From Owenia fusiformis (taxonomy: Eukaryota; Annelida; Polychaeta; Sabellida; Oweniidae): a DNA stretch of 64,000 nt. Made by a program: the position numbers and the translations under genes. Shown one piece after another: positions 16,065-58,549 of the stretch. The stretch spans positions 9,846,989-9,910,988 of the forward strand of contig CAIIXF020000006.1 in the NCBI GenBank assembly GCA_903813345.2, read 5' to 3'. How positions within the stretch are numbered: the first letter of the stretch is position 1; each line of letters opens with the position of its first letter. A model generated the notes under the pieces. It was given only the letters and a program-made list of their open reading frames with translations, did no database searches and was not told the DNA's origin.

Positions 16065-16084
16065 TTATGTGCATAATTAAAATG

Positions 16085-37000: not shown

Positions 37001-40000
37001 TTGTATGATTTTTCAAATGGGTTTATGATTCAACAATCAAATCATATACAGTATGTACATCAATATTAAGGCCATTGCTTTCCAAATAGTCTTGCTCCAA
37101 GCCCTTCTGACCCCAGAGACTTGATGAAAGACTAGCTGATTTCCTAATTGTTAAAAAATTCTAAAATTCACAGGTTCATCATAGTTGTTCAAATATCATA
37201 TAGAAAAAGATGATAAATACCTCTTTCCATTTTAGAATGTGAGGCCAAGTGGCATATGCTAGTTACAATAACCTCTTAGTGTTATACTGTGTGTTACACA
37301 GGTGTGTAGACTAACTTAAAAATAAATTTCATATTTTAGAATGTGAATGCAACAACCATTCTGCAAGCTGTGTCTATAATGCTACCAAGGGCTATGGAGT
37401 TTGTGAGAATTGCACACATAGTACTGGAGGAGATTTCTGTGAGCTGTGCATGACTGGATTCTACCATAATCTCAGTCTTCCAGACAGTCATCCAGATACA
37501 TGCATTAGTAAGTATAGTAGAGTATTGGGGAGGGGTGGTGGGAGGGAGGGGCGAATTAGAGAATGTAAGGTATGGGAGGTGTTATGTGTAAAGTAGGTGA
37601 AGTGTGTATATTAACATCAAATTGTGAAAGTATGTGAACACTCAAAATATAAACCCTTTTTCCAAGTACACTTAACAGATGTTGTCAGAAGCTCTTAATA
37701 TGGACACATATTAATATAAACACCTCTTAATATAAACACCTCTGAATATGAACACCTTTGAATATGAACACCTATGATATTTTTTATTCTCATTACAACC
37801 AAGTTATGCATGGCTTTTTATTGTGACCAGCATTTGGCATTGGGCATCAGGTTCTATAACAAATAGATACATACATGTATTTGTAGTTACAACCAGATGA
37901 TGGCATCTTCCCATGTCAATGTTAATATCCAGAATCATTAGTCAGGTTTACTTAAAGTGGACAGTACAAGGATACTTCCCTGAAAATGTTTTGGGAGGTG
38001 AAGCAGTTTCTTTTAAAACTGTGAATTCAGACATGAACCCAATGCCTTGTTTCACAGACTAAAATCTCAAGATGTTATGTTGACACAAACTGTTATTTTC
38101 ATTGTATTTTCTAGATTGTGATTGTCAACCACTGGGAGTATTAGACAACAACATAGACTGTACTCAAGAAGGTGTTTGCACATGTAAGCCTTTAGTAGAG
38201 GGGCGCATATGTGACACTTGCATTAACGAGTACTATGGCTTGCTCTTGCAGGAACATCCTGGTGAATGCCAAGGTAATATATGTGAAGGTTGTTTACTGG
38301 AAGGTTTTGGATAAATGGCTTTTAGACTGAGAGATATATGTGTATTTAGTTGCATATAACATTTTAAGCATTTAAATGGAGAATTATAAAATAGATTAAC
38401 ACACACTGTAAAAAATTGCTCACCTCAGCACAATGTGTATTAAAAAGGTTTTCAATCAAACATTTAGTTTTCTTCTGAAAATATATTTTCTGCATGTACA
38501 TTTTCAGCATGCACATGTAACCTAGATGGTACAGAAGTGTCCAGTAATATTTGTGAGAAGCAGACGGGTCAGTGTCCATGTAAGACCAGTACTACAAACA
38601 GGACGTGTAATGTTTGCAAAGATGGCTACTATGACTTCCCCGCTGGAAGGAGGAATGAGGTAAATGAGAGGAAATCAGACACAATCTGACATATTAAGGA
38701 AGATATTTTAGGAATTGATTGATTGATTGGTTGTTTGTTTGTTTGTTTGTTTGTGGGATCATCCCACGATCTAGTTACATGTCTCTTGAAGGAGAATTCT
38801 CAAATCAAGTCTACTAAAATACATTTCCAACATTCAAATTTCCAGTAAGATTTATATAAAGGCTGATCTTAGAGCATAATAATTGTTAGCATAGTGTTTA
38901 AACTTTTAATGTAGAATCCTCATCCTCATGCCACAAAGAAATCGATATAATCCTGGAATTATCTACCACTCTTACGTTCAGGAGTGAGATTCTCAACAAT
39001 ACACTTTAAAGTAGTTTGATTGTCTTAAGTACAAAAGCATGTGTCAAACCTCAATATCTTCAATGTTTGTGCTGTGGGAAAATATTGATTTTAAAAACAA
39101 ATAATGAGGGACGAAGATGTTTGCAATGCCTGTTTCCATAGCAACTAGATTTTAACAAGCTGTTAACAAGTACTTTTTCTGTTAATCAAGATATGTTTAT
39201 CATATATCACATTTTGATGATATTAAAGCTAAATGGTGCTAGGGTTATTAAATTAGCTCATTTACATATTCATATCAATTATGACTTCGTTACAACCAGT
39301 TTTAATACAACATACTGAATAAAATATTCTTGGATGAAGATTTTGATGTATATTAATATAATCATTCATTATAGCTATTAGCTTCATAAACCAATAATAT
39401 ATACTTGTACATATTTGTAACTCCTTTATTTCTATATTTGCTGCATGAAAACTAGAAAGTGAAAAAGAAATTATCCCATTTTATTGTCCCATTTGGTAAA
39501 AAACATTAAACATGTATATTGAAAATATATGCTATCTAGTATTCAATGTCGTTATAATCTGTTTTTGAATAGATGATCTTAAAACATGTGGTATTGATAA
39601 TGACGCACATCTATAGGAATTTAATACCAAGAACATCCTGATACTAAAACGGCTTTTGAAATAACAAAGATAAAAGGCTAATTGACTCCTTCCACTTTTG
39701 AATTGAGTGTTTAAACATATGGAGAAAGTATTTAGTTAATTGTTATGTTCAACCATAGAGAATTTGTTAGTTGGTTTCAGAAACATCTGGTAATGATTTC
39801 CAATGAAAAATCAATTTTAACTCTTTATGTAGATATCAATGTTAATCTCCAGATCTGATATTATTTTGAACAACAATATTGAAAAGGTCAACTCATGCCA
39901 TAGATCTGGACTTTTTAAAATAGATTTTAAAAACAATTGTGGACACCATCATTTTGTTCTATAACTACTTGTATTTATTATCGAAACATCTTTCTTGAAA

Positions 40001-43000
40001 TAATATTTTCAAAGCAAACTGACAGTTGTATAGACACCCTTTAAATATTAATTTCAATTTAGAGAAAATACACTATACATGTTTCCAAATAGTAATGAAC
40101 ACACATATATTTTACACAAACCACTCTTACTATAGTGCCAATTCTGTTCAATACTATATTTAACAATAATATCTCTCTCCCATTTTGCTTCTTCTTACTG
40201 TTTTCATTTACTAGTAATATCAATGCCTGTGATACATTGGCATCAATAGCCCTTAACACATGATGAGATGACATAATTGTACTTAAAATACAATGTTTTA
40301 ATAATTTTCACTGTGTACATGAGTAGTTATAGACTAGACTTTTGAAATATGTTGTTTAGTAATATACCATTGTTCTTATAATACTTTACTATATGCTTTA
40401 GGAATGCAAGGAGTGTCTATGTGACTGGGGAGCTTCCTACAACCAGTCATGTGACAAAGAAACAGGGAATTGCCCTTGCAAACCTTTCACTCAGTCAAAC
40501 AGGTGTGATGTCATACAAGATGGCTACTACTATGAGTATATCGACACAAATGTATATATGCCGACAACGGGGACATGTACATTGAGTGCAATGCTTCAAA
40601 GTGATGGGAATCCATTTACAGGGCGATCATTTATGATTTGCTCACAAGATGGCACCACCATCTTTGAGTATGTAAATGGCGACATTGCACAGATGCAAAT
40701 GGAATGGTAATATGGACATTTGTTTCTTAAATGAATTTGTTGTGATTTTAATGAGATAAGACATACCGATTTTGAATTTTAGTTTTGACGTGATAGAATA
40801 ACAATATTTACCAAAAGTGTTAATTGCTGTTAGTGTTGCTGTAATTAATTGGATGCTAAATCAGTATTTTAATTTTAAATTAATTATGCTTTTTTATTGA
40901 TTTTTTTATTAAAACTATTGTATTTCCTGAAAATACTGTACTGGGGAAATTGGTGCTACGAGAAAATGTAGTGTCAAAAAGATTCTATTTATTTAACTTT
41001 TTTATTTATCAGTAATTTTATTATCGACCAGGCGGTCGACCAGGCGTGCGTCCGTCCGTTGGTCCGTCCATCCGTCAACATTGGCCGCACAAATTAAAAC
41101 TGCTATTCGGATTGAGTCATATCCACATTCATTTTATGCATATCCATAATGTCTATTTGACCTATCATCGCCATTTCCCAAGTTCGCCCAGTTTCCGAGA
41201 AATTGCTGATTTTGACGTCCAAAAGTCATATTTTTCTTTAAATACTAGACACTTTGTTGAAGTAGAACTTTCAAATAACTTGTAGTAGTAGCTGTATATG
41301 CAACTTATGTCCTCTGAAGATTTCAAAGCTCTTGGAATTACAGTTTTTGGTGTACTCTATAAAATTTGACAAAAAGTAGGACTCATTTTCAGGAAACTTT
41401 CTCATGTATAAAGTCAATGGCAGGTTTTGTGATTGACAAGTTTCTCAAAGTTTGCCTTATACTTGATCATTTCTTGCAATGAATTACATCATTACTAGAT
41501 TTAAGAATTCCCTACATATTGCTCAATATATGTCAGCATCAAATTTTTACCGTTTTTGAGATATTTGACGTCAAAAACAGTAAAAATAAGTTATTTTTCA
41601 ACTTGCTTCAATTTGACCAAATTTCTTTTTGAAAATCATCTTCAAGTTGCCAGGAGTTCAAATCTGACATTCGTTTTAGGATTTGACCTTTACTTGACCT
41701 TCAGTGACCTTCGAAAGGTCAAAAAAATTGATTTTTCAAATTGATTTTTGGATGTAAATTTTGGTCAGCTTAATCACAAAAAACTTTACTGAGCTCTGAG
41801 TAAAATTTTCAAGGTCAAAGGTCATCAAACTAGGTCACAAACTGTGCTATCTAAGTTTCTCAAAGTTCGAGACTACAAATCCAAATCAATATTTTTTGTT
41901 TGAAAGTCAGGATATACATTCCTCTGAAGGTTCCAAACTGTGTGAGCACAGGATTGTGGGTCCTTTACTTATAAACTATACGGTATGTAAAAAAAATTTT
42001 AATCTTACCCATTCTCACCCATTCTTTATGACTTCCTATAGGTCCTATTACCCAGTTATCAGATTTACTCTGGGCAACTCAAACACAAGTTCTGTGACGT
42101 GGACAGGTGGTCGTTTAATTGCGAAGGTGTTGGGAAACAGTGATCCTGATGTCTCAGCAATCAACCCGAATCTCAGCCCCATCTGCCAACGGGCCCAGGG
42201 AGAGGTGAAAAGCTGGGATGTTAATCTCACTGATGGTATGTATTTTTACAATTTTTAAGTCAAGTGTGAATCATGTTTGGGAAATTTAATTTTCTTATCC
42301 CTTATTTGACAAAATCAAAAGTATTTAATGTTGGTTTTGGGAAACAAAGTTATATACCAGTATGTTTTTGTAAAATAACAAAATAAAATGTAAATAACAA
42401 CTTTGGTAAAACAAAGACTATATGTAGAGGAGATGCCGTTACTATGGGTGAAATCACTATGTAATGTATGCATGGATATTCTCAAAATATCAGATATATT
42501 TTATTCTTATTAGCCATAAATGGTAAGCTAGAGTTGCATGTTGCTTAGGTTACAGCCAGCTGGGGCTTGTTAACATGATAAATATAATTCAAGTTATTTA
42601 CTGGATTATACTTAATTGAACCTGAATTATTAAAAATAGTTTTATTGTATAGAATACATGTAGTTTGGGTTCATTTTATCTTTCATATTTGTTTTAAATT
42701 ATTTTTCTTTCATATCTGCCTTTCTTTGAAAATAACATATACTGTGTTGATGATATTCCTTTAGTATTAAAAACCATTTTATTTTCATTTACTTACCAAT
42801 TATTAATTTAATTAACATTAAAACTTTTAGAACATGGCATCCAGAAATGAGTAATCTGAATTTTATGGGGAGGGGGGTGTTTTGTGAAGACCTGTCCATA
42901 TTAACACATCATGAGAAGGAATTCCAATACATCCCTTTTGCCCTTTGCTTTTTGCTGGGTGGCCTCACATTTTGAGTTTTATTTGAGAGAATCCCCAAAC

Positions 43001-46000
43001 ATCTTTACAGTTCTTTATAATTCAGACCTACCAACAGGTAAGCCTGGAGAACAGTAGTTTTGTCATGCAATGTACAGAGTGTAAAACTACAAGGATTTGG
43101 ATCACTTGACCTACTTGCTTGGTCCTATATACTTGCTCTTTTGTACAATGGATGATCTTCATTCCTGAATAGGGCTGAACCATTTTGGGTCTTACATCAA
43201 ACACTTTGCTTCATCTATCCATGGCTGTACATGTATAAGTGACTACATGTATGTTATTTTTGTGTGTTTGTTCACAAATCCAATAATTCCATTTCTCCAA
43301 TTCACAGAATAACCATGTTCTAAAACAACTGAGGAATTTGCTATTTCTGTTGATTTACAAAATCTGATGCAAATCTGATCCTTGCAATCAGCTTTATGAA
43401 TTATAGAGTTCTGAGGACTTGAAAATGTTTTCATATCACTTCACTTCCTGAGTCATATCATCATCATGCACGCAGGCAGATAAAAACAAGGAATACAGAA
43501 AATACAGAAGCAAATTATAAGGATGTTATATCCTATGTTATTTAGGAATATCATTTTTATCCACCAGGAGATACTAATATCCCTGTGAGCAAGCATAGGG
43601 AAAAAATGAAGAATAAAAAAAACTAGTGAGAAACAATATCCCAAAAATAGCAGTGGCATCCTAAAGATATTCTCTCAAAAATATGGTAGTTATCTTATTA
43701 AGCATGATGTGAACACCATACATAAAGATTATAAGCAAAATTTATCTCATTGTTTCAGGGTGCATCGGTACTGTATCCTTCTTTTATAACTAGTTGGTAT
43801 TATGTAGGACCTTTGTTTTGTGTTACAGAGAAGTTGATTGGTTTCATTGGTGTAGATTAGATGGGTGGTTTTGGTTATATCACATACAACTGTTTCCGTA
43901 TTAATGGAAAAATTAACCTTACATTTACATCTGTAGTTGACATTCATTCAAATTCATTTTAATTAAGTTTATCAAATCAGTTAGTGAATTTGTATTGATT
44001 TATGATTCATTTACTAATTACGTTGGTTTTTATTGTTTTATGCAGATTAACCACAAGAAATTAATGTTTGATTTGTTTATGATAATGTCAGTAAAATATG
44101 TTTTTTATTTATTTGATTTATTGGCTCAGGCAGTGTTTAAAACCATTGTGGATTTTAATTTGTTTGTATCTACAACAACTACTGCTCTCACAGACCCCTA
44201 TAGATGACGTGAGAATCCCTGAAGTAATCAGAATATGTTATTTCTAGGCCCTGCTGCAGGAACAATACTAAGAGCAGGCTATCCCATAGAGCCCACAACT
44301 ACTTCTCTCACAGACCCATATAGACGACATTCGAATCCCTGTAGTATTCAGATGTGTTATTTCTAGGCCCTGCTGCAGGAACAATACTAAGAGCAGGTTT
44401 TCCCATAGAGCCTACAACTACTTCTCTCACAGACCCATATAGACGACATTCGAATCCCTGTAGTATTCAGATGTGTTATTTCTAGGCCCTGCTGCAGGAA
44501 CAATTACTAAGAGCAGGCTTTCCCCTACAACTACTTCTCTCACAGACCCATATAGACGACATTCGAATCCCTGTAGTATTCAGATGTGTTATTTCTAGGC
44601 CCTGCTGCAGGAACAATTACTAAGAGCAGGCTTTCCCCTACAACTACTTCTCTCACAGACCCATATAGACGACATTCGAATCCCTGTAGTATTCAGATGT
44701 GTTATTTCTAGGCCCTGCTGCAGGAACAATTACTAAGAGCAGGCTTTCCCATAGAGCCTACAACTACTTCTCTTACAGACCTCCATAGGCTTTTTTTCAC
44801 AGGCTTTCCCATAGAGTTCACACCTCCTTCTCTCACAGACCCATATAGATGACATGAAAATCTGTGTACGTATTAATCAGAATGTGTTATTTGTAGGACC
44901 TGCTGCACGAAGAATACTTAAAGCAGGCTATCCCATAGAGCCAACGACTACTACTCTCTCAGACTCTTCAAGGCGTGTCTTCATTCTCGAGGATGCTGTT
45001 ATTTTATATTCTGGGATGGCTGTGTCATTCACAATGTATGCAGTCAATACTAACCCTATCAGGTTGATGATATGGCGGCCAGTGGTATACAGGGAGACAT
45101 ATCAGCTTGTAGGAGAAGTCTGGTACACACCAACCAGAGTTGGAGAGCAAGAGGTACTGTAAACCTGATAATCCTAGCACACTACTAATACTCCTATTCG
45201 TGATAAGAGTTCAGGTGGTAATTTACATAAATATCTCCCATTATGCATCACTTTGGAAGGGACAAATTTTCATTGGCCCACCTAACGAGTCGAATACTCT
45301 GAACGTTTCTCAGCTTCTGATCTTCCATCAGCCCTCAAGCATAGTTATATGATCCAATCTATTCAATAATCAGAAAAATAATCGGAGATTCAAAGTAACA
45401 TTATTTATATTTTTTCGATCTTCGATGACGTCTGAGCAATTTCTGGGAAATCAGTGACGACACTGGAATTGGACAGCATTTTCAACTACAGATTTCTTCG
45501 TATTTGGGGATTATAGTTCAAAAAGCCTTGTTATATATCTTAATTACGTACCTATCATTTGTGCAAATGCAACTCTACACAAATGTTTAATAGAGTTGCC
45601 GTGCGGCATTGAAAAGACGGGTGACCGGGTATCTAACGTTCCTACCAGGGTTATGAATTTGATTTTTTTTGATTTTATCATTTTCATCTCTCAAAACGGC
45701 CAACTGACCTCCAACTCAACATACCAGTCATAAAACCAATCAAGCAAACAACCAACCAAGCAACCTACTAATCTTTCAATTATTAACCAACAGCCAAAAC
45801 AAACAAACATCAATATTCTGTCAATCACTTGTACTTGTATTGTACATCACATGTAATTGACAGTTTAAAACGGCAAATAACACTTCAATTTATGTGTCCG
45901 TAATATATATTAAACAATTCTTCTTGTAGAAATCCCCATCAATCATAGAAAACAATCATCGATATCCTGTCAATCACTCAGACAATAAATAAAGCAACTA

Positions 46001-49000
46001 AATTAGTCGATTATTTTAAAAGTGCTCTTTATCTTACAAGCTCTTGGTAAAAATGATGAAGTTTATTATAAATATCGAATAGTAGTCTACATTAGGCAGG
46101 CTATGTCTATTTAGTTTTGACAGATCAATAACGCAGATGCGAGTAGGTAGTTTCCAGATTCACCACCAGAGGGCTCGTTCGGGTCAGATAGCATGGCGGG
46201 TATAGTAGAAAGTTCCCTTTAACTTAAATTACATCTATTTGCGTGGTTCAATTTTCATATAACCCTTATGTATCTAATAGTTATGTAAATTCAAATATGC
46301 CCAGTGAAAGAAAATGTTATCTGTCCAATACAAGATAAGATAATTCACTTTTTGTGATTTTGTAACATGGGGTCTATGAGGAATCAACCCGAACAAGAAG
46401 TCGCATTTTCAGAAAAAATTAAATTTTCAAAGTTGATAGACAATTTGAAGAATAGCATCAATTATACATGTACTTTTACATGCAGATTTCAAATATGACA
46501 TCACTTTGACAGAATTTTGAATATTTAATGACGTAAATCAAGATTATTTCTACTCGCATCTAGTCTATTGGCTACTATATAAGGGAAAAATTTGCAACTT
46601 GAAACTTGAACTTGAAAGTTGGTAACCCAGCTAGGAATGTTAGGTACCCGGTCAACCAGCACCCGATTACCCGGTCACCCGGTTTTTTACACAAACCCTA
46701 ACCCAGATGTAGACAACGTTGTACCATACATGAGAGCTCTTCAAACGGGAGGTAACTAAACTGAACTAAACTAAACATTATAGTGAATTGGAGTATTGTT
46801 GTGTGTTTCATGAGCTGGAATTAGGAAGTTGAATAGTCTCAAAATTCAAAGTAAGGAAACTGTAAATATCTGTGAAAACTACAGTACACTGTATAAGCAT
46901 TCAGGCTTTCACTCAATTAATAAATATAAAAGCGTTGAAAATTACAAGGTTTACTGTAATTATTAGTTTTATCTCCTAAACATATCCTGAATGACATGTA
47001 GGATTATTATGAATTATGAACAATATCCAATTATTATAATGATGTTAAGGTTCAGCTGGAAAGTAACATTTTGGTAAAAAATTGCTATACCTGCACATGT
47101 TATTTTCTGGTACATAATTAAGTATGAAAGCATGTGTGTATTTCCTTGCTTTTTTCAGGAAAGTATCATTACACTGTCTACTTTTAGTAAACCTGGAAAC
47201 AGGTCAATGGTAGCTCCTGTGTTGTCTGGAAACTTTGAAAGAAAATTTGGAAAAACAGGAAGTGTGAAATATCAGAATTCCCTGGAGTTCCCTTTGAACG
47301 CCTACTAGATATTCTTAAAGAAAACAATGTAATGATACTTTCCTGAATAAAGCAAGGCAATTGACACATGTCTTCATACTTTATTTTGTACCAGAAAATA
47401 ACATGTGCTGGTATAGCAATTTTTTACCAAAATGTTACTTTCCAGCTGTACCTTAATAAATGGGTCTATCTGTTGTCAAATCTGTCAAAATTTGTTTTTA
47501 ATGATTTGCCTTGATTAACCCCTTCAAATTTTACTCAATTTCATCTTTTCAAATTGGTTTCAATATTTCAGATAAACTTAGATGCAAACTCCACTATAAC
47601 AGTAGCCAAGGGAGATCTTGTAGGTTTCCTTAAGATGACTACAGTGTCACCACTAGGGTATGTCTTCAAAAATGTTGACCATCAAATGAACTACATCACC
47701 CTTAGGGATGAATCAGATTTTCCACAAGTTGGAGACATAAGGTCAACTACCATTCAGGGATTCCCATACAGATTTGCCCTGAGAGTCAACTACTTGACAG
47801 GTAAATAAATATGTATGCCAGCAACCAAACTATCAAAACATTGTTTATTATACACAATAATATGAGAACAGGGGTTTCAGGGGCAACAGGTGATTGTCAC
47901 CGGTTGTTTTCACAAAATCGCCTGTTGTTTTTAGGGACTTCAACTTTTCCATGTTAAATTCATGATTTCCATTAATTTTGCCTGTTGCTTTCGTTTATTT
48001 ACCCTATTTTTCATAATTTTTATTCATAACATATGATTAAACTGACTAGTCAAATAATACTATTCCCCAAAAACATATAAATGGACTGATTGATCATTTA
48101 TATATATCTATTATTGATTCAATAATCATGTCATATAAATGACATATCAGTCACAAAGAATCACTTCAGCTAAAAATGCCAAAGTTACAAAAAGACAATC
48201 CAAAATTTAGATGTCGTTAGATACCATAATGGATCATGACCTAAACATTTCAGGTTTTGGTGAGGCGTGGTTCAGCAATGACAGTGTAGCATTAGATGCT
48301 AGGTGTAAATACAGCTTTACACTCAGTGTGGGGACATCCAGTGACTCTACCAGCTCCATATTAATTGATGCCATCCTTCTCCTACCTGACATTGCCCCAT
48401 TTACCATCTACCAGCAAAGTAAGTGTGCCTAAATTTCAAAATAATTACATTTTGAAGTGTTCCTAAGTTTCAAAAATAATTACATTTTGCGGAAATGGGC
48501 AAAATATGAACTTTTGAATAAATAGTACATTAGAAAAAAAAATTGGGAAAAAAAGGTAACATTGTCACATTTTATCAGAATGACTTTTCTATTTTCACTT
48601 TCATTTCCCGGGAAGTGCTGCCGGGACAGTATATGTCTAGAAAATTTTATTCATTCCTTTTAATCACCCCTCTTATATATTCTGACAAATTAAGTTAGAC
48701 TGAGCCTCTTAGAGTAATAAGAATGATATTGTTTTTCCAGACCCTAACCAACAGAGTGCAATGTTTGATTGCTTGACAGCCATTTCCCCATTAAACAATA
48801 GACCTGAGACAATAGCAAAAGAGGAGTGCCGTGCACTCATGTACTCAGTCTCAACTGAACTACACAATGGAGGCATAGGTAAGTTATTGTTGTGCACTCA
48901 TGTACTCAGTCTCAACTGAACTACACAATGGAGGTATAGGTAAGTTATTGTTGTGCACTCATGTACTCAGTCTCAACTTAACTACACACTGGAGGCATAG

Positions 49001-52000
49001 GTAAGTTATTGTTGTGCACTCATGTACTCAGTCTCAACAGAACTACACAATGGAGGCATAGGTAAGTTATTGTTGTGCACTCATGTACTCAGTCTCAACT
49101 GAACTACACAATGGAGGCATAGGTAAGTTATTGTTGTGCACTCATGTACTCAGTCTCAACAGAACTACATAATGGAGGCATAGGTAAGTTATTGTGCACT
49201 CATGTACTCAGTCTCAACTGAACTACACAATGGAGGCATAGGTAAGTTATTGTTGTGCACTCATGTACTCAGTCTCAACTGAACTACACAATGGAGGCAT
49301 AGGTAAGTTATTGATGTACACTCATGTAGTCAGTCTCAACTGAACTACACAATGGAGGCATAGGTAAGTTATTGTTGTGCACTCATGTACTCAGTCTCAA
49401 CTGAACTACACAATGGAGGCATAGGTAAGTTATTGTTGTGCACTCATGTACTCAGTCTCAACAGAACTACACAATGGAGGCATAGGTAAGTTATTGTTGT
49501 GCACTCATGCACTCAGTCTCAACTGAACTACACAATGGAGGCATAGGTAAGTTATTGTTGTGCACTCATGCACTCAGTCTCAACTGAACTACACAATGGA
49601 GGCATAGGTAAGTTATTGTTGTGCACTCAGTACTCCGTCTCAACAGAACTACATAATGGAGGCATAGGTAAGTTATTGTGGACTCATGTACTCAGTCTCA
49701 ACTGAACTACACAATGGAGGCATAGGTAAGTTATTGTTGTGCACTCATGTACTCAGTCTCAACTGAACTACACACTGGAGGCATAGGTAAGTTATTGTGC
49801 ACTCATGTACTCAGTCTCAACTGAACTACACAATGGAGGCATAGGTAAGTTATTGTTGTGCACTCATGTACTCAGTCTCAACTGAACTACACAATGGAGG
49901 CATAGGTAAGTTATTGTTGTGCACTCATGTACTCAGTCTCAACAGAACTACACAATGGAGGCATAGGTAAGTTATTGTGCACTCATGTACTCAGTCTCAA
50001 CTGAACTACACAATGGAGGCATAGGTAAGTTATTGTTGTGCACTCATGTACTCAGTCTCAACTGAACTACACAATGGAGGCATAGGTAAGTTATTGTTGT
50101 GCACTCATGTACTCAGTCTCAACTGAACTACACAATGGAGGTATAGGTAAGTTATTGTTGTGCACTCATGTACTCAGTCTCAACTTAACTACACACTGGA
50201 GGCATAGGTAAGTTATTGTTGTGCACTCATGTACTCAGTCTCAACTGAACTACACAATGGAGGCATAGGTAAGTTATGCTTTGTACTCATGTTCATGTAC
50301 CCTGTCTCCTTTAAATGACACAATGCTTAAACATTGAAAAATAAATTACCAGGTACATGGGTCCAATCTTTATTTTGTTCCATGACTGAAATCAGAATCA
50401 AGGCCGAACAAATTTAATTTATTCTAAAAGTTCCCTGTATTGGTGGATACTACATCTAGTTATTCGCCAGTTCATCTATCATTCAATTGTCATGTGACCT
50501 GGTTTTGACCAATTTTCCAATTTCAAGCTTTACAGTGATATCTAAGATATATAAGATTTTAATTCAGTGATTTGACTAAAATAAAGAAAACGTTGGCGGA
50601 GAGAGTTTGTATATCAAGTGGCACCGTCTGTCACCACCACCGAAATTATAAAGTACAAGTGCACTTTTTTGCCTCATTCCAATCAAATAGCAGGATATGA
50701 TCACAAGATCAATCCAGTGATCTCCCCAGCATTAAAGCAAGTGGGTGCTGCACCCACTTGGGTGCTGCACCCACTTGAGATTTTAATAATAGGCTTGCAC
50801 CCACCTGAGAATCTATTTTCACCCACTTGAAAATGAGAAAAATCATGAAAAATAGCCCTACTTGACCAAAGGTCTAAATTGTGAAATCTACAATTTTGCA
50901 CCCACTTGAGAAAAAATCCTGGGGAGAACACTGCAATCACAAGCACATGTTTTCCAAGAGTTTTCCAACGATGCCTACTTTTGAAGAATTGGTCATGTGA
51001 CCTTCTGCCAAAGCACTGACTGCCTTTTTCCGATCCTGGTTTAATTATATGGTAGTTAAGTTTCAGAAGAAACATTGACTCAAGTCCGTGATGACATGCT
51101 TAGTAAAATATGTCATTCAATAAATGCTCATAATGTTTGTCTTGCAGCATGTAATTGTGACCCTGTAGGAAGCATTGCCAATGCTACATGTGAGAATTAT
51201 GGGGGTCAATGTAAGTGTAAACCAGGTGTATTTGGACGTGCTTGTGACCAATGTTTGCCCGGATACTACAACTTTACAGAAGCGGGATGTGAATGTGAGT
51301 ATATATATGAGATGTGCGATAATAAGTATTTGTGATAATGTACTTTAGTTTTTGTGTCATAATACTTCATAAGGATAATCATTAGTTTAAATATTCCAGT
51401 TTGATGAAGTGGATCATAATTATACATGTATTGCTAACTGAATGAATCTTGGTGATGGGGGCAATTTGTAACAAGATTTATTAGTTTATATTAACTGCAC
51501 ATTCGTAAATGCATCCTGATCCAAATCTGTTAATATTTCTTTTGTACCTTGCAAACTTGTATTTTATTTTGTCTCATTTGACTTCCTTTCATTTGTGAAC
51601 AGTTACTGTGTTGCATTGGACCACATGGAAACTACATGTAGGATCTTATCCTGTAGGTCTCATTATGTGTGTTCCCTCAAAGTATCTTTCCTTCACTCTC
51701 AAGGTCTCCAAATTCCTTGTATGATGTGTCGAATGATCTAAAGATCCTTCCTATTTTGTTTGCTTCATATTTCTGTTTGTGATATCTTCCTGTTTATTTC
51801 ACCTTGCCTCATTGGGATTTCAAATGTCGTCTTGTCCATTTCCTTTTTCATGAGAGCTTTAGAAATGCTGGTCAGCTCTAAGTTACAGACCAGTCAAAAA
51901 GTTACCTTACTATATATTTGTGGCAACTATTAATTAGTCGATTGTAGTAAAATTCCCTGGTCATTCATGCTATACACAGACTACACCACATAGGTGCTGT

Positions 52001-55000
52001 TTTTTTGTTGCTACAAACTGTGCCTTGTCTTCTTATTTCATTATTTTCTGTCATACTTTATGTTATAACATTTTGAGGTGCCATTTATGGAGACCAGCCC
52101 TTTCATTTGAATGCAGTAGGCAGTGAATTTGAACACCTATGAAATCAAATTTTTCTGCATTTTTCTCAAATACACACATTTTAGGTGTTACATAAATTAC
52201 ATATTTTCTGCCTGTTTGGATTTTCAAACACCCTTGTTTAATACAAATGAAAGAGCTGGAAACCCTGGAGAATTTTCTGTGGGGACTATATATATTGTTT
52301 CCCATTGAAACCAACTTCTAATATTCAATATATTTCACATTGGCAGTTTGTCCAACACTGGTTTGTGAAGGAGACCCGTTGTTTGATAGTTACTATGGTA
52401 TCCATGACGATAACATTTCGCTGATTCCCATCATTTTGATTGGTGTATTTGGACTATTGTTGGTCATAACAGTTGGCCTGATTATAATATTAGTCTGTAA
52501 AAGACGTGCTATGCAAACTAAAAAGGGACTAAATACAGGAAAAGATAACATCAGTTATGTTGACATTGATATTAAAGATCCTAAAGGGATTCATGCATAT
52601 AATGTCTTCACAAATGATAACCATGATGATCAAATCAATGTCAAACCAGTCATTGAAGATGGTCAGACACCATCTAATACAAAAAATTCATTCATAAATG
52701 AAGCTTTCGAAGATCAACCTTTGAACCTCGAGCTCCAGAAAGCTGAACCAGAGCAGCCTAAGTCAAGTGCAGAAATAAATAATGCTCTTTTGAAAATCCT
52801 CAATGACATTGATGATATCGATCCTGACAAGGTTAACGCTGATAATGATATCACTGAGGAGGCTATAAGTGATTCAGATGAAGCTAATCTCATCGAGGCT
52901 GAGGTGCCCAATGTTAATGTTAAACCGACTGATGATGTTAATCCTGATGTGTTTGTTATATCAGGGAGTAAAGATCCCCTCAGTAATGTCTTGGATGAAA
53001 TTGACCATCAATCATTTAACTACGCTGATTTTGGAAGCTTTGATGAGGTCAATGGTTCCTTGGTATAAGCAAGTGAATTTTTGGAAACAATTATATATGA
53101 TAACAAAGATTTTATTGAAATTACGATTAATGGTTTCTTGGTGTTTTGTGTGTAAGAATAATTCAAGAAAACAATTTTATTTAGAACATAACTTAACATT
53201 TACTTAATAGTATGTGGATTTTGGTAATTACAGTTATTATTACTTAAACATTATGTGATAATTTAAGGAAACATTTTACTATAATTTTACAATATTATCA
53301 TTTAATTGAATAACAATCTTTTTTAATTGCGATAGTATAATCACTCCTCCCAGTTTGCAAGCTGAATAATTAGTGAATTCTGCAAAACTTAAAGGCCCCA
53401 TATAAAGTTTAAACCACTTTGGCTTATATTGTAGTCTTACCCAATGTTATCACAGTGTGATATGTGAAACTTTTTTTTTAAATTTCAAAAAGTGGTTTTT
53501 GATAGACTTTTTGTTTCAAAATTTGTGAATTTATTTAAAGCCAACTTTTAGAGGTCACTCATATCTTCTAATTAGCCACAATTCATACCAATGCATAGCA
53601 TTCATCCTCCCATGTTTTTTACTGAAAAAATTAAGAAAATCGGTTCATAAATAAGCGAGAAATGAATTTATCAGTGCATGAAAATGGTTCTGAGAAAAAT
53701 GCATTTCAAAATTTTAGTTCTCATAGAAACCAATGGTACAATGATATCTAAAACATAATTTATTCTTCCTTTTAACCTGGTTAGACAATCAACATTGGTT
53801 TTTATGAAAGTCTAGCATATTTAGAAAAGATTGACATCGAAAGAAATTTTTCAATTTTTTCAAAAAGTTTTTGCTACCTTTGTGACATCACTAATGTTTC
53901 AAAATATTTTTGATATGCTAAAACATTGAAGTGCCCCATTAAATATGGCATTTTATTATTGAAATAGTGTGTCCTTTGTTCAATCTTTTCATTGGTGTTA
54001 AAAAGATAATCTTTTTTGAAATGCATTAAGAAATATTTGATGATTAAGAAATTTCAACTTTTTTTGAAAAATGGCGGGAAATTTGAATATTTGAGAAATG
54101 AAATGCTCACAACTTTTTTTTCAAAAATTTTTTTTGTTCAAAAATCTCTAAAATCACTATTTAAGTCCTGACAAATAGTAAATGAATGATAAAAAAATAT
54201 TTTCAAACTTTAGAGGGGGACTTTAAGAAAATATGTAAATTATGTGAAAATTGATCAAAATTAGATATTCTGCCAATCCTCTGGCCCAAGCAATTATCAA
54301 TCCACACTCTGCAGAAATGGAAAACTTGGAGGAGTGTAAAATGTTAGTATAATATTAGTCGCTATATATACTCTGTAATATTAAAGGTAATACTCGTATT
54401 TAAAGGAATAAGGCTCAATTGTTATTTTTGAATATTTTATATATATTTTAAAGGTGAAAGAAAGGTCAGTGGTCTATATTTATTGTATATTTTTATTATA
54501 TATATATCCATTTTACTGCTTATAAAGCAATTTTGTGTACATTTTTATGATTCTTAGTATGTTATATCATGGGAAATATTAATTGTTTGAAAAACTCAAT
54601 TGGTTTTAAAAAATCTCCAATTGTATTCGTTAAATTTTTAAAATTTTATGTCTGTCTCGGGGTAGAGGTTATGTTTCCATGTAAAGTTAGTGAAATAAAC
54701 TATTTCAAAACATGCAAACGAATCAGAAGTATTTTGTTGAGATTTTATTAGATATGGACCACTGAACCTTTGTATTTAGTCAATCATATTAACCTTTTAT
54801 TTTAAAATAATTATGTTAAATTTTAATTATTTTTTTTATCTTATACCAAGGAACCATCTTCTGGTTAATTAGCACTGTTTCAGTGGTCTATATCTTGTAT
54901 GGCCAAATTCCTTATTTATAAGGAGATCCTCCTCCTTTGGGAGATTGCATATGGATGCTATTGCTAATATGAGTGATACTACCTAAATGAAGCCTCTGAA

Positions 55001-58000
55001 CCCTATGATGCATTAAGTCCATTAGATTCAGATTTTTATCTGATCCCCAGTTCAAACAAGTCAGGAGTATTTACATTATTTTGGACGATAAGTGTATTCT
55101 TCGATAACTCATTCATATCAGAGGAGTTTCTCAAACATATTGTTGATCCTGGTTGACTTTCCATGAAGTTACAACACAAATCATTTTCAATACAACTGAG
55201 CACTTTATTAATCTTTTTTGTCATGGACTCTTATCATAAAATCAAATTGTCAATTGTTTTGTCAATTATTGTGAATTGCATATTGATGCTCTTTACAGCA
55301 ACTGACTATAAAATACATAATAATTAATCATGCTTGAAAGAGATATAAAGTAATCTGCCGATATGTCCATTTCTTCTGTGGAAGTGCATTCCGTACATGA
55401 AATATTTCGTACAATATCTCGATCAGACTTTCATAATCTTCTCATAAATACAAAAATGTTGTTCATATCTGTTTTTCTTTTTGTTTGTCTTCAGTTGTCA
55501 TGATTGAAGTGTGCTCATAGAATGTAATAATTAAAGACACATCAGCAAGATCATTCAGGCTACAATATATCATGTCTTATCATTTTCAATACAAAGTTAT
55601 ATTGATCAGTTTTCCTTGAAAACTCAATCTAAAAAATTTAAATTTGACAATGTTCCAATAATGATCTTCCCATATTACATTATTCACTTGGAACATAGTA
55701 TTATGTGAATTTCATATACACCCTAAAAGTACATAAGGCTGAGTTTTGAACTGCCCACGGTGCAAGTCAATTGCATAATATTTTCCCTCTAGGTATCACA
55801 AAAAAGAACAATAAGCCCAATAGCCCATGCGGTGCAAATTACATGGTCACACAATCTCAACAAAAACTGCTATTCAAGCGCCTTTACACTGCTAATTACA
55901 ATGTGTCAATCTTGTCCGCAGATCATGTGTCAACTGCATCATCTTGTTGCTAGTGCACCACAGGAGTTCAATTGCAATAAACTGTGATGTATTTCAAAAG
56001 AATTATGTGAGTGTCAGTGCGCTTGGATTAGCTATTTTTGTTGAAAACACATGAGCATGTAATTTGCTCTGCAGGGCTTATTGTTCTTTTAAGTGCTACC
56101 TGGGGCGAAAACTCATTAAAATGTTACGCAATTCACTAACACCGCTGGCATTCAAAAATACAGCCCAACAGTACCATTTATCTTCAACAACACCCTGCTA
56201 ATAACACTTACCTTGTATTTGCGAATGCAACTAACACCTGTCGGCTACCAGATTGACCTAGTATTTTATGACCAATTCATTTAAATATAAATGGTACGGT
56301 GGCAGGTACTATTCATATTTAAATGAGTTTCCAGTAAAATAGTAGATTAATCCGGTAGCCGACAGGCGTTAGTTGCATTCGCAAATACAAGCTTAACCCC
56401 TTTAATGTGTCTCACTTAATATTCCGATAAGTCATTTTGACAGTGTTGTATGTATATTCTCCCTTGCCCTGTATCCTGTAGCATGCAACTGCAACGAGGT
56501 AGGATCATCAGGCCTTGTTTGTGACTACATCACTGGGCAGTGTCCCTGTAAAACCAATGTTGCCATGGTAGCACAGAACAACAGTCTTGGTATCCCTGGA
56601 GACAGGCAGTGTAGTGCCTGTAAACAGAATTTCTTTGGCTTTCAGACTGGCAATGGTGAGTGATGTATAGTATTCTAGATCTAATTTAACTTTAATCATA
56701 CATCTATTTGTGTATTATATAAATTCATATTATTTAAGTGTTTTTTGAAAATTGTGACAATAAGTACCTCTTAAACTAGCAGTATAGTGCATACAAGCAT
56801 TGGCAGGATTTGCCCAGGGCAATGGACAATGTTCAATATTCCATTAAGACTTGTGAATATACATGTACTGTTATGTACTTTACTTTGTTAACTCACTTTA
56901 GGATGTGCCCCATGTGACTGTCATTTAGAAGGAAGTTTGGACCAACAATGTGGTTCCAGTGGGGTGTGTCAATGTAAGCCTACCATAAATGGAGACAAAT
57001 GTGCAGGTTGCCAGTCAACATATTATAAGTTCACACCTGAAGGATGTCTGTGAGTCATTTTATACATATTTACTATTTAGTGCATAGTCCTACAAAAACA
57101 TTAAATCACGGTTTATTAAACCCAGTTGCATTGTACCAAAAAGCATTATAAGTTTGGGGTTAAAGATAAAAGGGTAATTAATATACAATGTGCTTTGGTA
57201 TATCAAAATAACCCACATTAGACAAAAACTACCCAATGTAAGTAGTGAATAGTGAAAAGTGAATAACAGGTTTGCTTGAAGATTGGGATTTATTGAGGCT
57301 GTGTTGTAGACTGCTTTGACCCCATTCATAACTTAAATGCATGGACCAGAAAACATTACATACAACCTTTAATGGGGAAAATGTATATGTTATTATAGAG
57401 CATGCAACTGTAGTGAAGCAGGGTCATTAAATCTAGAATGTGACCAGTCAGTAGGTGACTGTACATGTAAGTCCAATGCTGAAGGACCTAAATGCGATCG
57501 GTGTAGGTCTGGCCACTTCAATCTTGCCACCATTAACCCTGATGGCTGCCAGCCGTGTTTCTGCTATGGTCACAGCTCATCATGTACTTCAGCTGAGGGT
57601 TATACAGAGACCAGCATACAGGAGGACAAGTATGTATTGATTTGATATTCTCAATTATGATTGGTCAGACCAGGTCTCATTACTTCTGTATACACTTTAA
57701 AATGTGTCTTCAATTCTTTTAATGTTGAAAATGATGGACACTACTTGTTTTTATTTTCAATATTAAAGAATATGCCATAACTATTTATTCTAATGCCAAA
57801 GTAACGGAGAAGTTCAATGTCCTTTTTTATAAATATTTACACTTTAAGGCCCTCTGACTAACATAAAAGCACACTAACTTATGGTTTTGAAGTCTTTACA
57901 TTTATTAACCGATAAGAAATTGTAAACCTATGGGGAACATCCCTAGTTATTGTCACTGTTTATATTCTAGTGCTCAGGGATGGCCCTTGGCAGAAAATCG

Positions 58001-58549
58001 TCCCACTCATGTCACTGCCCCAGCTAGCTTCATTGGTGACAAACTCTCCTCATACTGCCAAAATTTAGTAATGGTGGTACAGGCCAGAAGTAGACCCGCT
58101 GCATACGGTGGCCATAGACCTGTCATAATGAATGGAAATGGTAAGTTTATGTTACAGCTACATGCTGCATACTGTGGCCATACACCTGTCATAATGAACG
58201 GAAATGGTAAGTTTATGTTACAGCTACATGCTGCATACTGTGGCTATACATCTGTCATAATGAATGGAAATGGTAAGTTTATGTTACAGCTACATGCTGC
58301 ATACTGTGGCCATGCATACACCTGTCTGTCATAATGAATGGAAATGGTAAGTGAATTGTTATAAAATTATCTTTTTCTCATTAACTTAATTTACTCAATG
58401 ATTGTGCTGTGTTGTAGGTATGAAACTCTTCTTCAATGAAACAAATTTTGAGGCCTCAGCAGTTGGACCACGTACTTTTACAGTACAGTTTCACGAGGCA
58501 TTCTGGGTGAAGGAAGACCTACAAAGACCAACTGCCTTTGAGTTCTATG
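24981..58549 (+). CDS. Laminin-like protein (LN-LE-LF-LE) with alternative transmembrane end or LE-L4 extension
   Basis: Common exons: 24981-25047, 28857-29056, 33254-33280, 35298-35956, 36332-36513, 37340-37507, 38115-38273, 38508-38659, 40402-40706, 42042-42235, 44897-45153, 47572-47800, 48254-48418, 48741-48878, 51148-51294. From there the short form uses 52347-53068 (stop at 53068; 1256 residues). The longer path uses 56482-56655, 56902-57049, 57399-57629, 57971-58140 and 58418-58549, and continues past the window. Every junction is GT-AG and in phase. The ectodomain order matches a laminin beta chain. The later exons match the LE-L4 region of a laminin gamma chain. No coiled coil is seen. 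The alternative is two genes, with 56482 onward belonging to a neighbour whose start is not visible. Confidence 0.8.
25700..28005 (+). repeat. Tandem array rich in AGGTCA words in intron 1 of the laminin-like gene
   Basis: After a GTCACCACC/GGTGACAT start and a GTCTGGCGTCCGGC microrepeat, about 15 units of 125-165 bp follow. Each contains TTCAACTTGCTTCAAATTG, CATCTACATGTTCTCAG, one or more CAAATCTGACTTTAGATTTG blocks, TGACCTTCAATGACCTTCTC and AAGGTCAAAAAAGGTCAAAA. Length differences come from duplicated ATTTGACATTTGACCTTCAA segments. Short Asp/Leu/Thr repeat frames inside are by-products. A related but single sequence lies at 41015-41900. Confidence 0.9.
28857..35956 (+). CDS. Laminin N-terminal (LN) domain exons, including a 27-nt microexon
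   Basis: The LN domain drives polymer formation in laminins and receptor or netrin-type contacts in relatives. Exon 2 begins the domain (SYFNMTVEPGDMTCG). The microexon 33254-33280 adds only DNPSKDPDK. Exon 35298-35956 carries the core: SCHICDARDESLSHPPSLMT, YWQSRAW, VNITLSFNKQYEFADD, SMVLYKSIDYGATWIPLQYY, PLSGGTVKF and TFTDLRLSLL. These are the family landmarks, including the CxxCDA motif and the YKSxDxGxxWxPxQYY strand. The next exon starts with the first EGF cysteines, as in laminins. Introns here are long (3.8, 4.2 and 2.0 kb) and filled with repeats. Confidence 0.92.
29084..29414. mobile_element. Small inverted-repeat element
   Basis: The left 50 bp, containing AAACTATTTTCTTCTTTACA and CAACCTTTATTTTAAC, are mirrored at 29371-29413 (GTTAAAATAAAGGTTGTGTA). 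No coding capacity is seen. The target duplication is not evident. Confidence 0.6.
30443..32449. mobile_element. Element with GCGGGAC repeats at both ends, host of a foldback element
   Basis: From 30443 (ACTGTCAACCCCTAAAG) several TTCGCGGGATTTTGCGGGAC words follow in plus orientation up to about 30780. At 32330-32449 the same words recur and the region ends CGCGGGACACTTGACAGCT, mirroring the left end. The outer ends match as ACTGTCAA and TTGACAG. The frames seen here are made of the repeated NSRDFAG-type word. I read it as one decayed inverted-repeat element of 2.0 kb with a second element inside. Confidence 0.5.
31158..32035. mobile_element. Foldback element, ~325-bp arms, GGGTTTGTATAAAAAACCGGG ends
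   Basis: The arms run from GGGTTTGTATAAAAAACC at about 31165 to 31482 and return at 31707-32030. They include the motif CCGGGTACCGGGTA, a CTCCATGCTGGGTTCAAAC stretch and a GGTGCGATCGCACC palindrome. The flanks share TTTCTAGATA on both sides, a 9-10 bp duplication as seen for Mutator-like elements. The loop of about 225 bp has no coding capacity. Confidence 0.8.
32540..33005. repeat. AT-rich tandem repeat (TTGAATATCATAACCC)
   Basis: Imperfect units repeat CCTTGAATATTTCAACCATT, then TACTATCCTAACATTTGAAT. The period is about 50-60 bp with frequent internal changes. It lies in the intron upstream of the 27-nt microexon. Confidence 0.8.
33285..33620. repeat. ~65-bp tandem repeat (GTGTGACTGTTGACC)
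   Basis: Four to five units contain CACATTTTGTGTGACTGTTG, ACCTTAATATGTGGTTGTT and AACTTGCGTTACGTGTAACT. More diverged words (TGTGTGGCTGTT) continue to about 33850. The array starts directly after the donor of the 27-nt microexon at 33280. Confidence 0.75.
34185..34643. mobile_element. 459-bp MITE, TTA target site
   Basis: The ends AGCCCCGTTTACACTGAC and GTCAGTGTAAATGGGGCT are inverted repeats with one mismatch, flanked by TTA (34182-34184, 34644-34646). The inside holds several AAGACCGGTGA/GACCGGCAAAA words in both orientations. The target site suggests PIF/Harbinger. Confidence 0.85.
36332..40706 (+). CDS. Laminin EGF-like modules LE1-LE5 (LE5 incomplete)
   Basis: Each of the exons 36332-36513, 37340-37507, 38115-38273 and 38508-38659 encodes one eight-cysteine laminin EGF module (CFCNLHAIQC..., CECNNHSASC..., CDCQPLGVLD..., CTCNLDGTEV...). 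Exon 40402-40706 starts LE5 (CLCDWGASYNQSCDKETGNC) but after NRCD it runs into DGYYYEYIDTNVY, the start of an LF domain. Four full modules plus a split one before LF is the arrangement of laminin beta chains. Module borders fall at phase-1 introns except the last. Confidence 0.9.
38660..40401 (+). other. Intron of the laminin-like gene, (GTTT)n microsatellite only
   Basis: A GATT/GTTT microsatellite occurs at about 38715-38752. The remaining 1.6 kb is AT-rich. I see no coding exon, inverted repeat or RNA gene in it. Confidence 0.7.
40402..48878 (+). CDS. LF-like domain with an inserted beta-sandwich-like region
   Basis: The domain opens with DGYYYEYIDTNVY and closes with CKYSFTLSVGTSSDSTSS, LIDAILLLPDIAPF and ECRALMYSVSTELHNGGI. 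These match the two ends of the LF (domain IV) module of laminin beta chains. Between them lie about 240 residues (exons to 47800) that do not look like LF. They include SFTMYAVNTNPIRLMIWRPV, YQLVGEVWYTP and TVAKGDLVGFL. That pattern, a strand ending in a WRP motif, then YQLVG, then GDxxGF, resembles extracellular beta-sandwich domains common in marine invertebrate surface proteins. I know no formal name. Only a search would show whether it is an insertion or a diverged LF core. Confidence 0.75.
41015..41900 (+). repeat. Dispersed repeat with GTCCGTCCGT start
   Basis: This begins with CCAGGCGGTCGACCAGGCG and GTCCGTCCGTTGGTCCGTCC. It later contains TTTTCAACTTGCTTCAATTT, CATCTTCAAGTTGCCAGGAG and TGACCTTCAGTGACCTTCG, the same words as the 25700-28005 array but not tandem. 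It is probably an older member of the family from which that array grew. Confidence 0.65.
42236..44161 (+). other. Intron of the laminin-like gene, nothing recognised
   Basis: About 1.9 kb of AT-rich sequence. Translation in six frames gives only short frames without recognisable motifs. The array at 44162 begins at its 3' side. Confidence 0.6.
44162..44896 (+). repeat. 113-119-bp array made of an acceptor and the 5' part of the next exon
   Basis: Five near-identical units each contain GTTATTTCTAG followed by GCCCTGCTGCAGGAACAATA and the next ~60 bp of sequence matching the exon at 44897. The acceptor AGs end at 44247, 44366, 44485, 44598 and 44711; the real one ends at 44896. In the units read, the decoy exon stays open for about 40 codons (GPAAGTILRAGYPIEPTTTS) but reaches TAG at the next unit's acceptor, or TGA earlier in the first unit. 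Two units lack 6 bp, giving the shorter period. Confidence 0.9.
45590..46700. mobile_element. Diverged foldback element related to that at 31158
   Basis: The left end contains ACGGGTGACCGGGTATCTAA. The right end, reverse-complemented, reads GGGTTTGTGTAAAAAACCGG then GTGACCGGG and ACCTAACATTCCTA. The terminal GGGTTTGT-TAAAAAACCGGG word matches the 31158-32035 element, so both belong to one family. The left terminus is degraded. Confidence 0.55.
46133..46555. mobile_element. Inverted-repeat element nested in the 45590 element
   Basis: The ends AGATGCGAGTAGGTAGTTTC and its reverse form CTACTCGCATCTAG delimit about 420 bp. The left 290 bp are a reverse-complement relative of 11815-12110 in the C3G intron. 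Confidence 0.55.
47049..47452. mobile_element. 404-bp MITE flanked by TTAA
   Basis: The ends GGTTCAGCTGGAAAGTAACA and TGTTACTTTCCAGCTGTACC are inverted repeats with one mismatch. Similarity continues inward for about 100 bp. TTAA lies on both sides (47045-47048, 47453-47456), as for piggyBac-type insertion. Confidence 0.8.
48835..50275 (+). repeat. 60-bp array of 24 copies built from an exon end and its splice donor
   Basis: The last ~45 nt of the exon 48741-48878 plus the donor (GGCATAG then GTAAGTTATTGTT) are repeated 24 times with period about 60 bp. Each copy keeps an intact consensus donor; the first, at 48879, belongs to the real exon and the last is at 50269. Copies differ at a few positions (AACTGAAC or AACAGAAC, presence of TTG), so the array grew recently. 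Reading through the first donor meets an in-frame TGA within the first extra copy. Confidence 0.95.
50715..50933. mobile_element. Short MITE with CAGTG-TCTCCCCAG ends
   Basis: The left end CAGTGATCTCCCCAGCATT mirrors the right end AATCCTGGGGAGAACACTG with two mismatches. The interior repeats CACCCACTTGA. CAGTG ends are typical of hAT elements, but only a partial flank match (CAATC) is seen. Confidence 0.5.
51148..51294 (+). CDS. Laminin EGF-like exon after LF: branch point of two possible 3' ends
   Basis: The exon encodes one LE module (ACNCDPVGSIANATCENYGG, then CKCKPGVFGRACDQCLPGYY) closely similar to the first LE after LF in laminin beta chains. It ends GCE plus one base, phase 1. Joined to 56482 it gives GCESCNCNEVGS, a normal LE-LE border. 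Joined to 52347 it gives GCEFCPTLVCEGD, which also supplies a cysteine at the right place. Confidence 0.9.
52347..53068 (+). CDS. Alternative terminal exon: transmembrane helix and acidic cytoplasmic tail
   Basis: The exon follows TTGGCAG and is in phase 1 with the LE exon. After a short cysteine-containing stalk (CPTLVCEGDPLFDSYYGIHD) it encodes one hydrophobic helix (IPIILIGVFGLLLVITVG, continuing LIIILVC). A stop-transfer basic cluster follows (KRRAMQTKK), then about 185 acidic residues rich in Asp, Glu and Asn. The tail ends NGSLV, fitting a class I PDZ ligand (S-x-V). SYVDIDI and YNVF are possible phosphotyrosine sites. No enzymatic domain is present. The hydrophobic helix directly followed by basic residues predicts a type I membrane protein once the signal peptide is removed. 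The tail matches nothing I know. Confidence 0.85.
53069..55788 (+). other. 3' UTR of the transmembrane form, then intron of the long form
   Basis: No coding sequence is recognised. A possible decayed inverted-repeat element runs from CTTAAAGGCCCCATATAAAG (53389) to CTTTAGAGGGGGACTTTAAG (about 54233). Poly(A) signal candidates are ATTAAA near 54381 and AATAAA near 54691. Either would give a 3' UTR longer than 1.3 kb. Confidence 0.4.
55789..56103. mobile_element. ~315-bp inverted-repeat element
   Basis: CTAGGTATCACAAAAAAGAA followed by CAATAAGCCC on the left mirrors GGGCTTATTGTTCTTTTAAG then TGCTACCTGG on the right. A second block, GCAAATTACATG, is also mirrored. No coding capacity. Confidence 0.65.
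56211..56392. mobile_element. 182-bp near-perfect hairpin MITE, TTA target site
   Basis: The two halves are inverted copies over about 85 bp (TTGTATTTGCGAATGCAACT, then AACACCTGTCGGCTACC). TTA flanks both sides (56208-56210, 56393-56395). It ends 90 bp before the acceptor of the exon at 56482. Confidence 0.85.
56482..58549 (+). CDS. LE modules and L4 (laminin IV-A) domain exons, gamma-laminin-like
   Basis: Exon 56482-56655 is an LE module with about 17 extra residues between cysteines (VAMVAQNNSLGIPGD). Exons 56902-57049 and 57399-57629 add two standard LE modules and the half module PCFCYGHSSSCTSAEGYTET, which in gamma chains directly precedes L4. Exons 57971-58140 and 58418-58549 start L4: GWPLA, APASFIGDKLSSYCQNLVMV, RPVIMNGNG, TFTVQFHEAFW and AFEFYG. 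These match the gamma-1 landmarks (PAKFLG, SYGQNL, RLHEA, FEF). The L4 end must lie beyond 64000. The first exon begins with an acceptor and has no start codon of its own, so it needs an upstream gene. Confidence 0.85.
58106..58356 (+). repeat. 66-bp array of four exon ends with donors inside the L4 region
   Basis: The end of exon 57971-58140 (CCTGTCATAATGAATGGAAA, TG) and its donor GTAAGTTTATGTTACAG recur with donors at 58141, 58207, 58273 and 58347. The first three are spaced 66 bp. Since 66 is a multiple of 3 and no stop intervenes, use of the second or third donor would insert one or two 22-residue units (KFMLQLHAAYCGHTPVIMNG, NG) in frame. The fourth copy has 8 extra bases and reads into TAA. 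Confidence 0.9.

Follow-up and report, generated by a model that had tools for sequence, protein, structure and literature searches.

The window, i.e. the whole stretch of 64,000 nucleotides of DNA from the annelid Owenia fusiformis that was analysed, contains a laminin-like gene that is best read as a single gene that starts at one 5' end and can finish at either of two 3' ends. We assign a probability of about 0.7 to this reading and infer the switch itself from the sequence; the reading is preferred because the gap between the two ends showed no recognisable first exon from which the downstream half could start. The original prediction had claimed that the phase 1 donor after position 51294 has two compatible acceptors, and this was borne out: GTGAGT follows the LE6 exon, whose frame is continued by the terminal exon at 52347 and also by the LE exon at 56482. 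Because many introns of the gene are phase 1 introns, the agreement of phases alone is weak evidence for a switch.

The gene was followed in both directions from this donor, including 60 kb beyond the window (pieces L002 and L003). The 124 kb of joined sequence that were examined do not contain a single run of N, and a scaffold misjoin was therefore dismissed. Two models with 15 coding exons in common describe the gene. Model A has 16 exons, the last of which is the membrane exon, and encodes 1,256 aa in an open frame; model B has 30 exons and encodes 2,015 aa in the order LN-LE-LF-LE-L4-LE-coiled coil, without internal stop. All introns of both models are GT-AG introns. Form A ends with one terminal exon, and form B ends with 15 further exons that encode LE7-LE9, L4, more LE domains and a coiled coil. 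The exons of the shared part are the following:

24981..25047, plus strand: first coding exon with signal peptide MKRFMQLGFILVVLPVLVLSQA and donor GTATGA, phase 1 (assigned by sequence, scan and frame)
28857..29056, plus strand: N-terminal segment shared with netrin-G, and start of LN
33254..33280, plus strand: 27-nt in-frame exon within LN, included by guess, as the frame holds without it too
35298..35956, plus strand: main LN exon, netrin-G-type; Laminin_N E 2.4e-45 together with its neighbours
36332..36513, plus strand: LE1, with the stretch W-x-[PA]-G-x-Y-x-P-x-P-x-G-x-x-N-x-C, also found in netrin-G1 and netrin-G2
37340..37507, plus strand: LE2
38115..38273, plus strand: LE3
38508..38659, plus strand: LE4
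40402..40706, plus strand: LE5, by eye lacking the two final Cys like the LE that precedes LF in laminin beta; LF begins here
42042..42235, plus strand: N-terminal part of LF, assigned by position, without a family match of its own
44897..45153, plus strand: domain inserted in LF, exon 1
47572..47800, plus strand: domain inserted in LF, exon 2
48254..48418, plus strand: C-terminal part of LF, laminin beta-2-like
48741..48878, plus strand: C-terminal part of LF, continuation
51148..51294, plus strand: LE6, last exon common to both forms, donor GTGAGT, phase 1

A candidate exon at 41911-41982 was discarded, as it would interrupt the frame. Upstream of the gene, at 14400-16070 of the window, exons are present that by eye read like a RasGEF-domain gene. 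Tandem arrays built from exon edges of the laminin-like gene occur at 44175-44781, 48831-50292 and 58098-58352 of the window and at L002:4790-5040. The acceptor edge of exon 44897 is present 6 times, the donor edges of exons 48741-48878 and 57971-58140 are present 24 and 4 times, respectively, and part of an LE exon is present 3 times, the genuine edge being counted in each case. These splice sites, repeated at several places in the gene, may affect its splicing.

The N-terminal head of the protein resembles netrin-G. A query of 354 aa comprising LN and LE1 matched 22 distinct PDB sequences, with netrin-G1 (196.7 bits) and netrin-G2 (193.8) at the top, followed by netrin-1 (150.8), laminin gamma-1 (139.9), UNC-6 (123.4), netrin-4 (91.9), and laminins alpha-5 (88.6), alpha-1 (72.9) and beta-1 (70.5). 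The netrin-G alignment spans the segment before the usual LN start and also the end of LE1, which the netrin-1 alignments do not. When LE2-LE5 were added to the query, netrin-1 scored higher than netrin-G2 (216 versus 195 bits). No netrin-G match extends past LE1, not even that of a longer netrin-G1 chain of 426 residues; the comparison is uneven, since LE1 is near the end of two of the three netrin-G sequences. In these comparisons, the likeness to netrin-G is confined to LN and LE1.

In the tree of LN domains, the window LN joins netrin-G1/G2 with a support of 85/97 (16 rows), and with 94/96 after removal of one long branch (15 rows); the program starred the clade in neither case. Among the groupings tested after the tree had been seen, those with laminin beta or alpha were rejected (AU p 0.001 and 0.0012), and those with netrin-1 or gamma were rejected at the modest level of p 0.039 and 0.034. 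Orthology of the window LN and the netrin-G LN is likely, but not proven, because its branch is long (1.57), several rows of the tree are partial LN domains, and the clade is unstarred. Three of the other LN genes of the genome fall into clean classes, with an alpha gene matching laminin alpha-5 (307 bits), a beta gene beta-1 (249 bits), and a gamma gene gamma-1 (316 bits). Two laminin gamma-type LN genes are present in the genome, at C6:38.95 Mb and C2:30.87 Mb (L016-L019). On the same chromosome as the gene described here, there is another LN-LE gene (L024, C6:31.893-31.898 Mb), which is very divergent and in two of its LE stretches shares 47-48% identity with LE1 and LE2 of the window gene. 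The gene had originally been called laminin-like; its LN, together with LE1, is of the netrin-G type rather than the laminin type, whereas the LE repeats and the LF/L4 short arm implied by that label are present.

The designation LN-LE-LF for the shared part also needs qualification. It holds for the C-terminal half of LF, which together with LE6 has laminin beta-2 as its best match (100.4 bits), but the Pfam LF model stays below its cut-off (18.7 versus 27), and the middle of LF is an inserted, unrelated domain. LE5 matches LE5 of laminin beta-2 (47.4 bits). One study describes that in beta chains the LE5 before LF lacks its last two cysteines (PMC5338690). By these matches, LF is beta-type in its C-terminal half, with a foreign domain of about 160 aa inserted. 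This domain (44897-45153 and 47572-47800) has no Pfam match and recurs elsewhere in the genome, e.g. in a 2,987-residue open frame on C1. Its motif IWR....Y.L.G is found in several proteins (L027, L028, L029), some of which are Thr-rich and, by eye, secreted.

The near end of the gene consists of one exon and a candidate signal for polyadenylation:

52347..53068, plus strand: alternative terminal exon of form A, with Cys-containing spacer, TM helix, acidic tail, and stop (53066-53068)
54694..54699, plus strand: AATAAA, candidate polyadenylation signal of form A

The exon had been predicted to encode a transmembrane helix, a cytoplasmic tail and a stop, and this was confirmed, as it is open up to the stop at 53066-53068 and contains a short stretch with two Cys, the 21-residue helix IILIGVFGLLLVITVGLIIIL with a mean hydropathy of 3.23, and a tail of 189 residues. 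The tail is acidic (40 D/E, 16 K/R), starts with KRR and ends with NGSLV; we take the final S-L-V to be a class I PDZ-type ending. The exon is the second-longest open frame on the plus strand of the window. A coding score trained on the other window exons of the gene gave +33.7 bits for its own frame and negative values for the five others, and, with stops as frequent as in four intron stretches, 240 codons would stay open with a probability of about 1.8e-7 per starting point. A chance open frame is ruled out by these two values. A search of the genome at E up to 0.001 retrieved one match, the exon itself, and it has no Pfam match over the cut-off. A further AATAAA lies at 55976, in the gap between this exon and 56482. 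Of the 20 nucleotides inspected at each acceptor, 12 are pyrimidines at the near one (52347) and 16 at the far one (56482).

The far end extends beyond the window:

56482..56655, plus strand: LE7, first exon of the extension of form B
56902..57049, plus strand: LE8
57399..57629, plus strand: LE9 and first part of the LE split by L4
57971..58140, plus strand: L4, exon 1
58418..58549, plus strand: L4, exon 2, last exon in the window
L002:133-294: exon with the end of L4, beyond the window (small L4-end profile, Pfam)
L002:4156-4425 and 4996-5139: LE exons beyond the window
L002:7065-7280 and 7644-7825: coiled-coil exons
L003:2900-3163, 3516-3753, 4258-4436, 4763-4873 and 5226-5603 (stop): coiled-coil exons

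The claim that 56482 opens a chain of LE and L4 exons proved correct, as this stretch (56482-58549) holds three LE domains and, in addition, the first parts of a split LE and of L4. The extension is, however, more than LE and L4: it does not end at L4, but continues with more LE domains and a coiled coil of about 520 residues, encoded by seven exons, up to the stop of the gene at L003:5603. Several edges of the coiled-coil exons were picked among alternatives as those that keep the frame, and their exact positions are provisional. With the two window exons only, the Laminin_B (L4) profile scored 40.8 bits over positions 3-90 of 136; with L002:133-294 joined, it scored 64.2 bits over positions 3-136 of 136, so that L4 is complete. 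A rule-based exon search had not found the end of L4, and the candidate L002:3806 was false and was set aside; the exon was found at E 1e-4 with a profile made from five L4 ends of the same genome and was confirmed by Pfam. Because L4 is complete only with L002:133-294, the downstream half is one intact gene body across an inserted element. This element, 5.2 kb long, occupies 58732-63922 of the window in the L4 intron, has inverted repeats of 1,159 bp that are 98% complementary, and is presumably a recent insertion; the flanking L4 exons are 5.6 kb apart. Nested in an intron of the gene, at L002:805-2148, lies an open frame of 448 residues with stretches that by eye are TM-like and without a Pfam match over the cut-off.

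Among the other genes of the genome, an alpha-5-like gene (67.7 bits) and a gamma gene (65.8 bits) are nearest to LE7-LE9 and L4. The coiled coil, 519 aa in the model, has a periodicity of 3.5 residues, with a heptad power of 39.6 compared to a maximum of 23.6 in 300 shuffles. Neither a Pfam laminin I/II match (the Pfam hits are below the cut-off) nor a matching PDB chain was found for it, and each of the seven matches in the genome is to the gene itself. The genome has at least 67 Laminin_G_2 matches, and none of those listed falls within C6:9.85-9.97 Mb; an LG domain split over small exons may have escaped the search.

Rather than one gene with two ends, the locus could consist of two genes in tandem, a membrane receptor gene from 24981 to about 54.7 kb and a laminin-like gene from 56482 onwards with an unrecognised first exon of its own. 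A separate signal-peptide start for 56482-58549 had been named in the original prediction as one outcome that would speak against the switch. It was looked for with a scan for an ATG, a hydrophobic core and a phase 1 donor, which is blind to first exons that are not phase 1, untranslated, or atypical. The scan recovered the true exon at 24981 and gave no candidate in the 3.4 kb of the gap (53069-56481). A Markov control of the gap length averaged 0.96 hits, and therefore the zero means that the gap contains no candidate of the scanned type, not that it is depleted of them. Two genes in tandem would be compatible with the AATAAA motifs at 54694 and 55976, which could serve an alternative terminal exon or a gene end alike, and the downstream half alone would be similar to a laminin chain without LN, like LAMA3A, which has its own promoter according to a review (PMC9788559). 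Against it stand not only the lack of a signal-peptide-like phase 1 first exon in the scanned gap, but also the start of exon 56482, which coincides with the first cysteines of an LE domain, like that of other LE exons of the gene, and the order of an LF-like insert followed by L4, which is that of the alpha3 and alpha5 short arms (PMC5338690). Taken together, we regard two separate genes as unlikely.

A variant that would keep the 3' switch, but add an internal promoter and with it an additional long form without LN, has a precedent in LAMA3 (PMC9788559). The LE6-LE7 intron of 5.2 kb would offer room for a promoter, and the scan over 24900-56481 gave five weaker signal-peptide-like hits in addition to the true exon, the best of which scored 3.07 compared to 3.46, so that an internal first exon outside the gap is conceivable. 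But no first exon was recognised in the gap, and we consider this variant quite improbable. Least probable by our estimate is that only one end is in use, the long half being a decaying relic or the TM exon an unused open frame, since the inverted-repeat element in the L4 intron and the lack of a paralogue of the TM exon in the genome (E up to 0.001) are countered by 15 of 15 extension exons of the model that keep frame and splice sites, and by the strong coding signal and the clean helix-KRR-tail layout of the TM exon.

If one gene indeed has both ends, splicing from 51294 to 52347, followed by polyadenylation near 54.7 kb, would yield a type I membrane protein with a tail ending in S-L-V, and splicing past the TM exon to 56482 would yield a laminin-like chain that has the same head and is secreted. 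Which of the two is made would depend on competition between the acceptors, the near one being the weaker and the far one the stronger, or on use of the near polyadenylation site, in analogy to LAMA3 and LaNt alpha31. Because the near acceptor is weaker than the far one, skipping of the TM exon would be the default, and its inclusion together with polyadenylation the regulated choice. At the cell surface, LN could bind netrin-G-type partners or the LN tips of laminins, and the tail could signal or hold the protein in place. In the long form, this head would become part of the matrix, perhaps within a coiled-coil oligomer. The original proposal of a cell-surface form and a matrix form that share LN and LF fits the sequence, with its signal-peptide exon and an unbroken frame to each end, but it has to be modified in that the head is netrin-G-type and the extension longer.

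Several known systems share features with this gene. Usherin is an LN-LE protein with a transmembrane form, and we know of no laminin-like extension with a coiled coil in it. Netrin-Gs bind NGL/LRRC4 receptors and consist of LN, three LE domains and a C-terminal module, in contrast to LN, five LE, LF and LE6 in the window gene. The likeness to netrin-G1 and netrin-G2 comprises the top score of LN and LE1, the N-terminal segment, the end of LE1, and the occurrence of a membrane-bound form. However, netrin-Gs have a GPI anchor and form A has a TM helix followed by the 189-residue tail beginning with KRR; moreover, the window gene has a laminin-like extension, gives better matches to netrin-1 from LE2 onwards, and belongs to a spiralian genome, as marked by the KLTGP motif of a Lox5-like gene in the Hox cluster on C1. 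With laminin chains in general the gene shares LN, LE repeats and the LF/L4 short arm, but its LN groups outside of them. The order of an LF-like first insert and then L4 is the same as in the short arms of laminin alpha3 and alpha5 (PMC5338690), but a grouping of LN with alpha is rejected (AU p 0.0012) and none of the 67 LG matches listed lies near the gene. Similarly, the LE5-LF-LE6 arrangement is that of laminin beta, with beta-2 as the best match of the C-terminal half of LF and LE6, but LN is rejected as a member of the beta group (AU p 0.001), L4 is present, and a domain is inserted in LF.

The closest precedent for the gene is LaNt alpha31, a short product of LAMA3 that is generated by intron retention and polyadenylation, as described in a review (PMC9788559). 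In both cases a short LN-LE form arises, or would arise, because the transcript takes an alternative 3' end and is polyadenylated before the remainder of the gene. However, LaNt alpha31 uses intron retention, whereas here a spliced terminal exon would contribute a TM anchor and the shared part includes LF. The text of the same review mentions neither 'transmembrane' nor 'GPI' (PMC9788559). The gene would work like LaNt plus netrin-G, with a long matrix chain and a short LN arm held at the membrane both coming from one gene, and is a member of neither as defined, because anchor and domain set differ. In the literature examined on transmembrane or membrane-anchored laminins or netrins, these terms refer to a receptor, a ligand or dystroglycan. 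If transcripts confirm the switch, the gene would provide a new, membrane-anchored counterpart to LaNt alpha31. To our knowledge, it would then also be the first laminin-type gene that is able to put its own LN/LF arm on the cell surface via a transmembrane end.

Two papers treat netrin-Gs as synaptic adhesion proteins that are specific to vertebrates and linked to higher brain function, and call them vertebrate-only or without invertebrate orthologues; one of the two mentions a single ascidian Ntng (PMC4706652, PMC4000137). In the literature searched, which covered few subscription papers, none was found that names netrin-G together with annelids or protostomes, and one, a growth-factor review, names it together with molluscs; this does not prove absence. 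A netrin-G-type head on a protostome gene that also has a coiled coil and laminin short-arm domains would imply that the head is older than the vertebrates. It would also represent a concrete intermediate for the origin of netrin-G from a laminin beta-gamma ancestor, as proposed in a review (PMC9788559). We tentatively suggest, as a possibility rather than as our expectation, that netrin-G was not a vertebrate invention, but may go back to an ancient laminin-type gene whose LN was netrin-G-type, and specifically to its membrane-anchored splice form. The annelid would have kept this gene with its two ends, one for a transmembrane 'netrin-G' receptor and one for a coiled-coil matrix chain, and vertebrates only the short anchored half.
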